Assembly (NCBI GenBank): GCA_025201805.1
Contig: MU619261.1
Span: forward strand, 8,437 to 61,617
Length of the DNA stretch: 53,181 bases
From: Parasitella parasitica
Taxonomy: Eukaryota; Mucoromycota; Mucoromycetes; Mucorales; Mucoraceae
Reading direction: 5' to 3'
The notes beneath the pieces were generated by a model that had not been told where the DNA came from, did not search any database, and saw only the letters and a program-made list of their open reading frames with translations. Positions 10,911-16,115 of this stretch are shown one piece after another. Position 1 is the first letter of the stretch. The number at the start of each line of letters is the position of its first letter. The translations under genes and the position numbers were made by a program.

Positions 10911-11179
10911 TTACGGTACTCGATTAAAGTAGTGGGAATAAAGAAAAAAAGAGAGAGGAAAAGGAACAATACGACGAGCCAGTTACGTAAAGTCGTTCCA
11001 AAGTCAAGAGCGGTGCTTAAAAGCGGGCAATAATTTTTTTCAGAGGACGGTTTTTTAGTGGTATCTGGAGTTAGAATGACCAATGGAATTGCTATATATT
11101 CAACCTTCGAAGCGTATTCCGAAAGATATTCAATCTCCCAGGCTTAAGTATTTAATTTAAGAAAGCGTATTTGGAAATA

Positions 11180-11367
11180 CAGTGTTTCTACTTTAAATTC
11201 AGACGATGTTAATTTTTTTCTGGACGAATTGAAATTAATATTTAGACAAATAGCTTACCTATTTTGGAAACCAAAATAATTATTTCCAGATAAAAAAGAA
11301 ATTATTTTAGACGAATCAGATTTAATTATTGGACCATTATCTTACCTATTGTGGAAAAAGTAAAAAT
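11180..11367 (+). repeat. Left terminal inverted repeat (188 bp)
   Basis: Matches the reverse complement of 14796-14983 with only scattered substitutions. It contains direct repeats with an 87-bp period: CTTACCTATT occurs at 11254 and 11341, and GACGAAT occurs at 11223 and 11310. A third, more diverged copy (GGACAAATC) starts near 11398, beyond the inverted repeat. Such repeated subterminal sites are the usual layout of transposase-binding sites. Confidence 0.9.
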
Positions 11368-11718
11368 TATTGTACAGATAAAAAAGGAAATTAGTTTGGA
11401 CAAATCAAAAGCTAATTTCTTTATATCAATGGATATTTTCATCAATAATCATTGTAAATTATTAGACTTAATTCGTGGATTATCTGAAGCAAAATTAGTA
11501 AATATTCATATGCTGTTTCATACGTGCTCCAACTAATAGTTGGATCCAAACTCTATTCTACTGTTGAGATAGATATATAATAAATAAAACAAAACGAAAT
11601 GAAAAGCCAGTAAATTCCAATAATCTTGTTCAATTACAAAAGCTTCTATTCAAACAGTCTGATGTGCTAGACATTGTTGTTTTCGAGATGTTTAATAAAA
11701 GACAAGCTGCTTCTTTGC

Positions 11719-11925
11719 TTAAGATAAACCAATATGGAAAACTGCCTTTATGAGCCCACGTGGTATGTAGACGAAGCCTTTTCTACTTTGGTGATGAGGA
11801 TAATCAATAGTAAATTGTTTTGATTTTGTCAATAAATCAGTCTTTGTAGTTTGAACTAAAGTTTCATCGGTCCGTCGAATTTCTAAAAGAAGACCTAGAA
11901 TATCTTTCAACATTTCTTTTCTCAT
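11719..11925 (-). CDS. Short open frame inside the Fanzor element, unknown
   Basis: A frame of 68 residues starting at ATG 11925, divergent from the Fanzor start at 11942. The sequence is basic and not low in complexity (for example KGFVYIPRGLIKAVFHIGLS at its end), but I do not recognise it. An ATTAATGTAG immediately before the ATG could instead be a splice acceptor, making this the last exon of something longer. It could also be a relic of a transposase tail or a captured gene piece. Confidence 0.25.
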   Translation of the reverse strand: MRKEMLKDILGLLLEIRRTDETLVQTTKTDLLTKSKQFTIDYPHHQSRKGFVYIPRGLIKAVFHIGLS

Positions 11926-11941
11926 CTACATTAATAAAAGT

Positions 11942-14625
11942 TATGAAACGCAAACACGAAGACGAACAATCTGATGATCCAGAAAAAAAGATTTTAAAGA
12001 ATAAGTATCAAACGCGTACCTTACAAAAGTGTGTGTTTCTTACATTGTTTAGGTGCAGACCTGGTTAACCAAGAAATATCTACTTTAACATCATTTACTC
12101 CTTCTCATCATATCGCTTCTACTCATACTGATTCTACTGAGATTGCTTCTATTCATATTGCTTCTACTGATCTTAATCCTACTCATATTGTTTCATCTCA
12201 TACCGGCACCAATTCACCTAGTGATATGTCATCTTCTTCCAGTACCACTCCTATCATATCATAGAAAATTCAAAAGAAAATTGATAAGAGTCGTGCCTTA
12301 CAAGAGTTCAGGCTGCAACAAAAATCGGACAAACCAAAGCTGTGCCCCTCCTGCAAACAAGATACCCACGCACGGTCCACGAGCAATTTATGCCCCAATA
12401 AAAAGAAGAAAGAGACCAAGTTTGAGGCGGATGAGTTTCACTTAAAAACACTTGCAAGAATCAACTATTCGCAAAAAATCTGGCTCAAGTAGTAAAATAT
12501 ACTAATATGATTATTCATGTTGGTTCTCTTTTTGTAAACTTTGTGTTCCTGAAACTGCTTGGTAATGGCCAAGCGATACCTGTAATAGAGCAAAATATAT
12601 TCGCTTCCATGTTCGCCCTCATCACTGGTAATGGTAAAAAAGTGCCAAAATACTTGAAAGAATATTTTAATGACTTTTGCGATTTGACATCATTGGATCG
12701 TGAAAAAATTAAAGGGATTGAGTATTCCAGCCTCCTCAATATTGCGGCTAAACAATATGAAACCTTAACCAGAAATTACATACATGATACGCATGAAAGA
12801 AGATCAATAATGTACTTTTTGAAAACGATGTCAGATAAAAACTCAAACACTTACCGCAAAAATCTTCCGGTTGCCTCAAGGAAGGCTTTAGCCTATTACA
12901 TTTATCATAAAAAGCAAGGTTCGAGCCCAACATGGCCGTCGAATGTTCAAAATAGCCCAGAAAACATTGAGACTACAGAGAAATTACTTACCTTATGGTC
13001 AACGTATCAACCAGATACTTGGGACACGAAACCACTCTATTGCGATTCAGATACGCTCTACTCAAAACCTCATCTATTCTTCAAATGGGTTTATTTTCTT
13101 TCGGAAGAAGTCCACAAGAAAGTTGATATTATGGAAATTCAATTCATTCAAACTTTGAGCAGAAAGCGATTCCAATCTTTACAAGAACAAGTTCTGCAGT
13201 CGATTAACTCAAATGAGACGTTTGTATCAGGGAGAAAATTGTCCTTACTCACTGTACAGCAGATTTCAATTATCCAGCACTTTATAGATACCGTCAAAGC
13301 ACGGATTGAAGATGGAACATTTTTCCCGGCCAAATATACTGATCCTAGAGGTTATCGCTTTTTCACAATCGCTCATGTTTATACTATACAGAGCAAAGCA
13401 ATACAAATAGACGCCCAAGCACTGTGGAGGTTGGTTAAACAATCCGACGTACCATGGTATCGGTCAGGCAAAAAGACAGAAACCGAGCTAACAGAAGCCT
13501 ATCATAATCTTTTCCGTTTTTCTAAGCTTGGATTTCGAACAAGAGAAAGTCTGTCGACGGGCAAAAAACGTTTCAAGTAAGTTTCTTTGATTTTGTTGAG
13601 AAATAGCACTGACCTTGTATTAGTAATGTGATTACCACAGATGGCTATTCAGTTTGTTTTCATTTTATTCGTGCTGTAAAGAAGAAAAACGAAGGCTATG
13701 TTGAAAAGCAACCCTCAGACTTTATTAATGATATTCAACTTGGCTGCCAGATTTTTGCTATCGATCCAGGAATTCGTGATATTACAACAGCTGTCGACCA
13801 ATTAGGAAGAGAAAGAACAACAAGCTTAAAAGAGTACTACCACCTTTGTGGCTTTAATGTTGCTAGCACACAAAGAGAGCAACATAAGAAACAGCACATG
13901 AACGAATATCAGAAAATTTCCACTTAAAGCTCATTCAAGACAACTAATTTAGAAGATTTTGTAAAAGCATGTAAAGAACGATTTGATCTATACGATGATA
14001 TCAAAAAATATTATGACAGCGATGATCGGTAAGCGCTCAACATTAAATTTATTTACCTTTTACTAATACGTACGACTCTAGTTCCTCCAAGCTTAAGTTC
14101 AAATGTTACATAAAAAAACAAAAATGCATAGAAGAAATCTGCCGACGACTTACATATGGAAGCGCTAAATACGGTGAAAAGTCAAGAATGACAGAAAAGA
14201 AACAAAAAACTAGTTATATTCCACCTACTCCGATTGATCATGATATCAAACCTCGTAAAACAATTCTCGCCCTAGGAAATGCGATGTTCAATGGGAGTCT
14301 TCGAGGGAATAAACCAGCACCAGTAAGACGTATCAAGGAATCATTGAGGAAGCGCTGTGGGGAGACGTTAGATATATGCTTGATAGACGAGTACCTAACA
14401 AGCCAAGTTTGCAACATCTGTAAAGAACGCAATTTGGAAAATGTTACAACGGCCAAGTCAGTGCGAAGAGTACATGCCGTATTGCAGTATCAGCAAAACA
14501 CTTGTAATACGGTATGGAATCGCGACATAATGGCTGCAAATAACATATTGGACATCTTTCTCTTCGCTGTATTCAATAACAACGAGCGTCCAGACATATT
14601 TAAGCGACACACCTCACCCGTATGA
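11942..14625 (+). pseudogene. Fanzor (eukaryotic TnpB-like RNA-guided nuclease), damaged
   Basis: Core exons 12435-13576, 13624-14028 and 14082-14625 splice in frame (introns of 47 and 53 nt; TACTAAT branch site in the second). RuvC motif I is AIDPGIRDITTA (Asp codon 13763), motif II is LIDEYLTSQVCNIC (Glu codon 14389) and motif III is WNRDIMAANNIL (Asp codon 14524), so the catalytic triad is present. A TDGYSVCF strand precedes motif I, as in Fanzor1 proteins. The N-terminal part holds a zinc-knuckle-like CPSCKQDTHARSTSNLC in another frame. Two lesions are visible: a frame change near the A-run at 12444-12448 and an in-frame TAA at 13925-13927. The third Cys expected in the C-terminal zinc ribbon appears to be Tyr. 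The 5' exons (from ATG 11942, with a Thr/His/Ile/Ser repeat at about 12090-12200) are uncertain. Confidence 0.82.
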
Positions 14626-14795
14626 TTGATATAACTCTCTCATACTCCTTACAGATGTAAGTATATATACATTCTAAACTTCAGTCAATATCCTAACCAT
14701 TATTTTCTTTTCACCCAAGCTTTTCTGCTTTTCTAAGGTAAATTCATGATCATACTATAATACCATCAAAAACTAACTTAAATTGTCTAATTTCC

Positions 14796-14983
14796 ATTTT
14801 TACTTTTTCCACAATAGGTAAGTTAATGGTCCAATAATTAACTCTGATTCGTCTAAAATAATTTCTTTTTTATCTGAAAATAATTATTTTGGTTTCCAAA
14901 ATAGGTAAGCTACTTGTCTAAATATTAGTTTCAATTCGTCCAGAAAAAAATTAACATCGTCTGAATTTAAAGTAGAAAAACCG
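14796..14983 (-). repeat. Right terminal inverted repeat (188 bp)
   Basis: Mirror copy of 11180-11367, the same length to the base when aligned from the TA flank to the AAAAAT inner boundary. It lies about 170 bp downstream of the Fanzor stop codon. In characterised Fanzor and TnpB systems the guide RNA is transcribed from the 3' end of the gene into the element end, so 14626-14983 is the place to look for one (inference). Confidence 0.9.
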
Positions 14984-14994
14984 TAAACTAGTGA
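14979..14994 (+). repeat. Left target-site duplication of the LINE insertion (16 bp)
   Basis: AACCGTAAACTAGTGA, identical to 16100-16115. It includes the last bases of the Fanzor element, its TA flank and the host sequence beyond, so the retrotransposon arrived after the DNA element. Confidence 0.85.
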
Positions 14995-16099
14995 CTTCCA
15001 AATGATACGTTCACAAATGGAATATGGACTAGCAATCTGTGCCTTGAATCAAACAAATATAAAGCAGCTCGAGGCGGGTCAAAATGACTGTGTACGTAAA
15101 CTGTATGGGGGATCTCGAACATCTTCAACGAAAGTGATGTTGCGTATGGCCAATCAGCCCTCAATGAAAGATAGATCAATAATTTTGCAAGCTAAATACA
15201 TACGTCGAGCACTACAACTACCAGAGGATACACTGTTACAAAAGCTACTACCGCATATCCAAACATCTGCCAGTCATTCTCAATGGTACAAATTAATCTC
15301 CAATCCTCTCTGGCAAAAATGTGAACCAGTGTTGGACAGATTAGACCGACGTACCTTTAACACCCTGAAGCGAGAATTCCTCCAGGATAGTTATGCCACT
15401 CTCTGCAATGGTCCGAATAGCCAAATGATTTCCACTTGCCGTCCAACTTTGGTGGTTGATCCTATTCTATGGCTACCAATGACACGTATGGAGCGTAGTC
15501 AGGTACTTCGATGGCGTCTTGGCTGGCTTCCAGGAGGCAAACCACGCCCTTGCCCTTTCCACCCGACAACTAATCTCTCTCGTGCTCACGTTACTGACTG
15601 TCTGCAGATACATCGCCGACTTCAGTTGCCTGAATCTATCCAAGACTCTCTTTCTTTCCTGCTTAACTTACTGCCACTAAAAAAGCCCACAAATGCTCAA
15701 TACAGCGCTTCCTGGGCATTCCGTTGGCCTGCAATCTGCTTGATCCTATTCGAATTAGATCATATTTTCCACAATGAAGACGTTCCTCCGGCTCCTCCTC
15801 ATATCGGTACTAGTTTGGTAGAATGGTTGCATAGGTAAAAGCTGCTAGTGTTTCTGACCTGTTTCTGGATTTTTTCTTTTTATTTCTCCTCTTTTATACT
15901 CTTTCATTTCAACTTATATTTGTTTCAATTTATAAGTTCTTACCTCTTCCATACTTTTTTCGTTTTCCCTCTTGACTCTTCAGAGGGTTTTTTCTTTCCT
16001 TCCACTTGGCGAACTGGTCCGGGCAATGCAGTTATTCCAACTATTGTGCTCATTATGACCATTTTTATTTTCCTTTTTATTTAATAAAATTTCTCATTT
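14995..16099 (+). mobile_element. 5'-truncated non-LTR retrotransposon (LINE)
   Basis: 1.1 kb bounded by 16-bp direct repeats. It is cut off inside the reverse-transcriptase frame at its 5' end and ends in an AT-rich 3' region with AATAAA (ATTTAATAAAATTT). There is no pure poly(A) tail. Truncation at the 5' end and a long target duplication are the marks of target-primed reverse transcription. Confidence 0.85.
15002..15838 (+). pseudogene. C-terminal part of LINE reverse transcriptase ORF
   Basis: 278 open codons. The start has IRSQMEYGLAI followed by KQLEAGQNDCVRKLYGG, the C-terminal end of a LINE reverse-transcriptase thumb region. Further on, PFHPTTNLSRAHVTDCLQIH offers a Cys/His cluster of the kind found after the polymerase in fungal LINEs. 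No endonuclease or palm domain is present because of the truncation. The frame is uninterrupted, which suggests a fairly recent insertion. The first ATG is incidental and not a true start. Confidence 0.8.
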
Positions 16100-16115
16100 A
16101 ACCGTAAACTAGTGA
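16100..16115 (+). repeat. Right target-site duplication of the LINE insertion
   Basis: Exact 16-bp copy of 14979-14994. The sequence after it (GCCCAGCTTTTTGG) is therefore the original right flank of the Fanzor element. Confidence 0.85.

Follow-up and report, generated by a model that had tools for sequence, protein, structure and literature searches.

A probable Tc1/mariner-like element with a decayed Fanzor1 gene in Parasitella parasitica and a retrotransposon inserted at its right end

The stretch analyzed here (the window) comprises 53,181 nucleotides (nt) of Parasitella parasitica contig MU619261.1, and its positions 11180 to 14983 very probably represent a non-autonomous Tc1/mariner-like (TA-inserting) DNA transposon in which a Fanzor1 gene, now decayed, is the only recognized cargo, and at whose right end a long interspersed nuclear element (LINE) was inserted later. 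The 188-bp terminal inverted repeats with TA on both sides reported in the initial annotation were confirmed by repeat comparison: the left repeat (11180..11367, + strand) follows a TA target-site duplication at 11178..11179, and the right repeat (14796..14983, − strand) is followed by the second TA at 14984..14985. With their TAs, the arms (11178-11367 and 14796-14985) span 190 nt at 96% complementarity, which is far beyond chance, since the runner-up inverted repeat outside them in the 53-kb window, with arms up to 8 kb apart, reached only 44 nt at 70%. The first 12 nt of the element, and thus the start of the left repeat, are CAGTGTTTCTAC; its last 12 nt are GTAGAAAAACCG, and the right repeat reads CGGTTTTTCTAC inward. 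The CAGTG-type ends described earlier are therefore exact on the left, as a CAGT-type terminus is in most copies, and do not hold on the right, where the inward reading is CGGTT. Excluding gaps, the left repeat was 96.3% identical to the right repeat and 96.3 to 98.2% identical to six ends of other copies. TA adjoins both ends of the window element and most of the viewed ends of other copies; it is missing at the C77:49379 end and on one side of the C8:60583 copy, and the left end of the C2 copy is truncated. Each arm contains two direct-repeat units, 87 bp apart and 73% alike (11215-11284 and 11302-11371 in the left repeat; 11215..11371, + strand), which are likely transposase-binding sites. 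The inverted repeat/direct repeat arms of some Tc1 elements have a similar layout. In an alignment of eight diverged copies, an invariant part of the right ends contains AGGTAA (e.g., window 14816-14821 and 14903-14908). In seven of these copies the next base is G, giving a motif that resembles an outward-facing 5' splice site; it is perhaps the core of a transposase-binding unit or a splice donor.

As in the initial annotation, no transposase was visible inside the element. ORFs (open reading frames) of more than 180 amino acids (aa) were pieces of the Fanzor gene only; seven smaller ORFs in the element, including an 80-aa ORF at 11294 and a 61-aa ORF at 11568, had no Pfam match at an E value of 0.1; and no DDE_3 domain fell inside it among the 150 matches listed. 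Nor did any listed DDE_3 match lie within 10 kb of the 24 repeat places checked (the nearest was 11.1 kb away), so that a related full-length element with a DDE transposase, which had been suggested as a target for searching, was not found among them. This search scored 150 of 301 candidates and listed 150 of 163 matches; absence is not established. Three Fanzor places had a listed DDE_3 match within 5 kb (C42, C39:36774-38010, and C72). The C42 match was rejected as the element's transposase, as it lies outside a Fanzor element of another type, described below, and C39:36774-38010 was rejected as a sister element, having DDE_3 nearby without the window repeat. These observations bear on the possibility that the element belongs to another TA-duplicating superfamily and that its repeats are bound by a different transposase. 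The length of the repeats (188 bp) and the lack of listed DDE_3 matches near them favor that alternative, whereas the TA, the CAGT[G/T] terminus, and the units inside each arm fit Tc1/mariner, and DDE_3 genes are abundant in the genome (163 matches); we regard it as unlikely. The mariner assignment made in the initial annotation relies on three features, namely the TA, a start reading CAGT[G/T], and the layout of the repeats. By its repeats and genome copies the element is apparently a eukaryotic transposon other than IS607.

The Fanzor1 gene remnant (11943..14625, + strand) was delineated from ORFs and from comparison with other copies and relatives and consists of at least three coding blocks, all on the + strand. 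Its start, ATG 11943, was proposed by eye from the N termini of two Mucorales relatives (P0001 and P0009). An in-frame stop (TAG, 12262..12264) precedes the N-terminal CPSC...H...CP motif. The reading frame changes near 12430, and a 381-aa ORF (12435..13577) follows in a frame unlike that of the preceding block and carries the N-terminal REC/WED fold of Fanzor. The next block (13613..13924) contains the RuvC-I Asp and ends at an in-frame TAA (13925-13927), and a 192-aa ORF (14047..14622) contains the RuvC-II Glu, the zinc ribbon, and the RuvC-III Asp. The three RuvC acidic residues noted earlier are present in order, as the codons GAT (13763-13765), GAG (14389-14391), and GAC (14524-14526). 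Profile search identified the cargo as Fanzor (Fanzor1 type), as proposed: the 192-aa ORF matched PF07282 at 28.3 bits (cut-off, 26.3) and the Guillardia theta Fanzor1 structure 9cer at an E value of 4e-4. The C-terminal D...E...D arrangement with TNB/zinc ribbon is thus present, although the third ribbon Cys is Tyr (14488-14490), as it also is in the C46 copy; Cys is kept in C158 and C4.

Judged from these lesions (two in-frame stops, one frame change, and the Tyr), the window copy no longer makes a full Fanzor. We weighed the possibility that the locus is still an active Fanzor, with unusual introns removing both stops and the frame change and with a working protein and omega RNA. The kept D/E/D residues speak for it, but the C2 copy has a sense codon at the TAG and stays in frame where the window copy shifts, and a sense codon likewise stands in place of the TAA in C158. 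Because those copies read through, the sequence there is coding and the lesions are absent from the copies compared at each site; together with the substituted ribbon Cys, this makes continued activity very improbable. Even less probable is that the host has domesticated the Fanzor gene and that the repeats are relics: the kept D/E/D residues would suit such a history, but the repeats are still 96% identical, the gene itself is damaged, and other contigs carry related copies bounded by these repeats. The C158 and C2 copies bear stops and frame breaks of their own, and no fully intact copy was found among the five compared (window, C158, C2, C4, and C46; only part of C4 and of C46 was viewed, and runs of N interrupt C2 and C46). 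The idea that C2 had its RuvC part replaced was dropped, as the stretch is N. With its gene broken in several places, the window element gains no support as the locus for RNA-guided nuclease biology that the initial annotation saw in it.

The repeat and the gene recur across the genome (30.7 Mb, 232 contigs searched). The window repeat had 17 matches, its own two ends included, so that the further copies on which the initial annotation depended do exist; a related repeat (C44) had 21 matches at an E value of 1, and the terminal pattern, with up to three mismatches, had 14 matches compared with 0 in a reversed control. The C-terminal Fanzor ORF gave 62 matches, corresponding to about 51 places when joined at 5 kb, and the N-terminal ORF gave 31; PF07282 had 36 genome matches, 32 of them above the cut-off. 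Repeats of this family also enclose clearly different Fanzors, those of C77 (31% identical to that of the window over the aligned part) and C44 (33%); the C77 element also contains a nested reverse-transcriptase-like stretch. At C22:285279-286955, the repeat family encloses a Fanzor-like fragment that was picked by eye, scored 20.4 bits with PF07282 (below the cut-off), and was missed by tblastn at 1e-4. Gene-less copies were found at C16:304663 (66 bp, TA on both sides; L016 ~864-930) and C8:60583 (106 bp, TA on one side; L065 ~86-190). Of nine Fanzor relatives, eight carry names, and these belong to Rhizopus microsporus, Cokeromyces recurvatus, and Mucor flavus; a Fanzor from a different element of the genome was identical at 117 of 117 residues to a P. 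parasitica protein. Two side observations concern individual copies. An element with a mariner-type end (L071 23-1913) has 690-bp inverted arms that are 99.9% identical, and TGACCAATGGAAATGCT, or a sequence near it, stands ~30 to 90 bp to the left of three copies (window 11077-11093, L007 ~1412, and L016 ~820-836); with up to two mismatches, it had 19 genome matches (control, 0).

Related loci with ~43 to 53% identity to the window protein have other ends, GAGCATCTCCAAC...GTTGGAGATGCTC. By reading, 6 of the 10 loci with both ends found have matching TTA, TAA, or TTAA on both sides (L025, L033, L036, L038, L045, and L060, on C122, C2, C85, C96, C70, and C42, respectively), and L028, L030, L031, and L032 have no matching flanks. 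Nine of these loci measure 1.6 to 2.1 kb (three with runs of N) and look like internally shortened forms of a 3.7-kb copy (L045). From these loci, Fanzor seems to have switched from one type of transposon to another within the lineage; the TTA/TAA-flanked elements are, we presume from the duplication length, PIF/Harbinger-like. A Harbinger transposase was reported in MCi-5 elements without terminal inverted repeats (Bao and Jurka 2013, PMC3627910).

A history of the window element can be proposed from these features. A DDE transposase supplied in trans would have bound the repeats and moved the element by cut-and-paste. The Fanzor, while intact, would have associated with an omega RNA derived from the right end together with neighboring host DNA; it would have cleaved the corresponding empty site beside a target-adjacent motif (TAM), and repair would then have copied the element back. 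The gene of the window copy has since decayed, and the LINE inserted at the right end after the element's arrival. Several points weigh against this account. The homing step is borrowed from TnpB/Fanzor work and would apply here by analogy, and a transposase with these repeats, which would secure a mariner assignment otherwise read from the termini and repeat layout, was not found; the DDE_3 list does not cover all candidates, and runs of N interrupt several copies. Structure prediction, which had been proposed as a check, gave a model of the 192-aa ORF with a mean pLDDT of 41.7 that supports nothing. The right-end RNA of the window element, from the region that the initial annotation named as the likely source of the guide RNA, folded no better than shuffles (z, −0.57; other values were 0.43 for the window left arm, 0.39, and 0.75). 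ATA flanks occur at 5 of 5 left and 3 of 6 right ends of known orientation (that of C22 rests on a weak fragment), and they are consistent with a TAM, including the ATN TAM of PpFz1, in numbers that are far too few. No right-end-specific signature was found, as right ends resemble each other no more than they resemble left ends, and none of six sources gave an RNA family at gathering score. Given how nearly the two arms agree, any omega-RNA scaffold in the last 75 to 150 nt would be expected in both.

Immediately to the right of the element lies a 5'-truncated LINE, a non-LTR (long terminal repeat) retrotransposon (14995..16103, + strand), which was recognized from a LINE copy in C2 and from duplications at both ends. 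The 12-bp duplication GTAAACTAGTGA (14983..14994; second copy, 16104-16115) covers the final base of the element as well as its TA, and the LINE must therefore have inserted after the element. Homology with other copies begins at 14997; the C2 copy is 99% identical, and its upstream part matches RVT_1 at 52.3 bits. The LINE 3'-end pattern occurred at 12 places (control, 0), and GTA follows the 3' end in 11 of them, the exception being C47. Eight 5' junctions were resolved by the duplication (C21 by 10 nt only), and four places were left out (C47, which is diverged, and C51, C56, and C196, which have runs of N). Of the resolved junctions, four fall a single base inward from the outer end of window-type mariner repeats or their kin (ACT|GTA or ACC|GTA), and every one of these has a target-site duplication of its own: those of the window, C2, C16 (at a tiny copy), and C22:95400 (window 14995-16103; L009 from 4518; L016 931-1697; L071 1972-2524). 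The weakest case is C22:95400, where 29 of 32 bases of the end agree with the L063 repeat and a Fanzor was not shown in the element. The other four junctions are at C43, where no repeat was seen; at C12, in which the LINE sits on the 3' end of another LINE; at C176, away from any recognized end; and at C21. Since the duplications and the LINE 5' start points differ, the insertions are separate events, and segmental duplication was ruled out as the cause of the adjacency. GTA is so common (~32 per kb on both strands of the window and about one million in the genome) that three or four of eight insertions at a few dozen repeat ends would not arise by chance, by an estimate that uses the 24 repeat places. 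The favored target of this LINE family is, somewhat more probably than otherwise, the outer end of Fanzor-carrying mariner-like repeats, cut at ACT|GTA (ACC|GTA in the window), one base inside, where the last G of the element meets TA; the retrotransposon would then parasitize DNA-transposon ends. In its boldest form, the proposal is that the LINE might prime on nicks made there by the mariner transposase or Fanzor. The Tx1L LINE of Xenopus, which targets the DNA transposon Tx1D, likewise has a DNA-transposon target; here, by comparison, four of the eight resolved insertions hit the outermost base of a mariner-like end.

The element itself adds to a known kind, since Fanzor1-only mariner elements with TA duplications, such as PUl-4, have been published since 2013 (Bao and Jurka, PMC3627910). 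PUl-4-type elements resemble the window element in carrying Fanzor1 only, mariner-type inverted repeats, and TA duplications; their repeats are identical to those of confirmed mariners, whereas no transposase with the window repeats was found among the DDE_3 matches listed and the window copy is decayed. The Spu-1/SpuFz1 family of Spizellomyces punctatus (PMC10432273) is likewise a Fanzor1 between inverted repeats with many copies, gene-less copies, and no transposase found with the same repeats. Its repeats are 30 nt, compared with 188 nt with internal units in the window, and its omega RNA was seen (at Spu-1 loci, RNA runs 14 to 15 nt past a conserved 75-nt region), whereas that of the window element is putative. 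P. parasitica also has PpFz1, described as solved and active, with an ATN TAM and a 75-nt omega RNA (PMC11423790). Active PpFz1 shares 15% identity with the window Fanzor over the fold alignment and was matched by sequence with no query at the thresholds used. The window element is thus a decayed addition to the Fanzor-only mariner-type transposons, in a species that already has a solved, active Fanzor. The Fanzor copy itself is ordinary and decayed; more interest attaches to its setting across the genome and to the LINE, which is the less expected finding. Literature searches, at the level of their listings, showed no LINE aimed at mariner ends, and the pattern, if true in other strains, would be a new LINE target choice as far as that search extends. 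The genome is useful for its ~51 Fanzor places, its different Fanzors in one repeat family, its TTA/TAA-type lineage, and its tiny gene-less copies, and so copy-rich a genome can address which transposase moves Fanzor elements and whether Fanzor aids their persistence.
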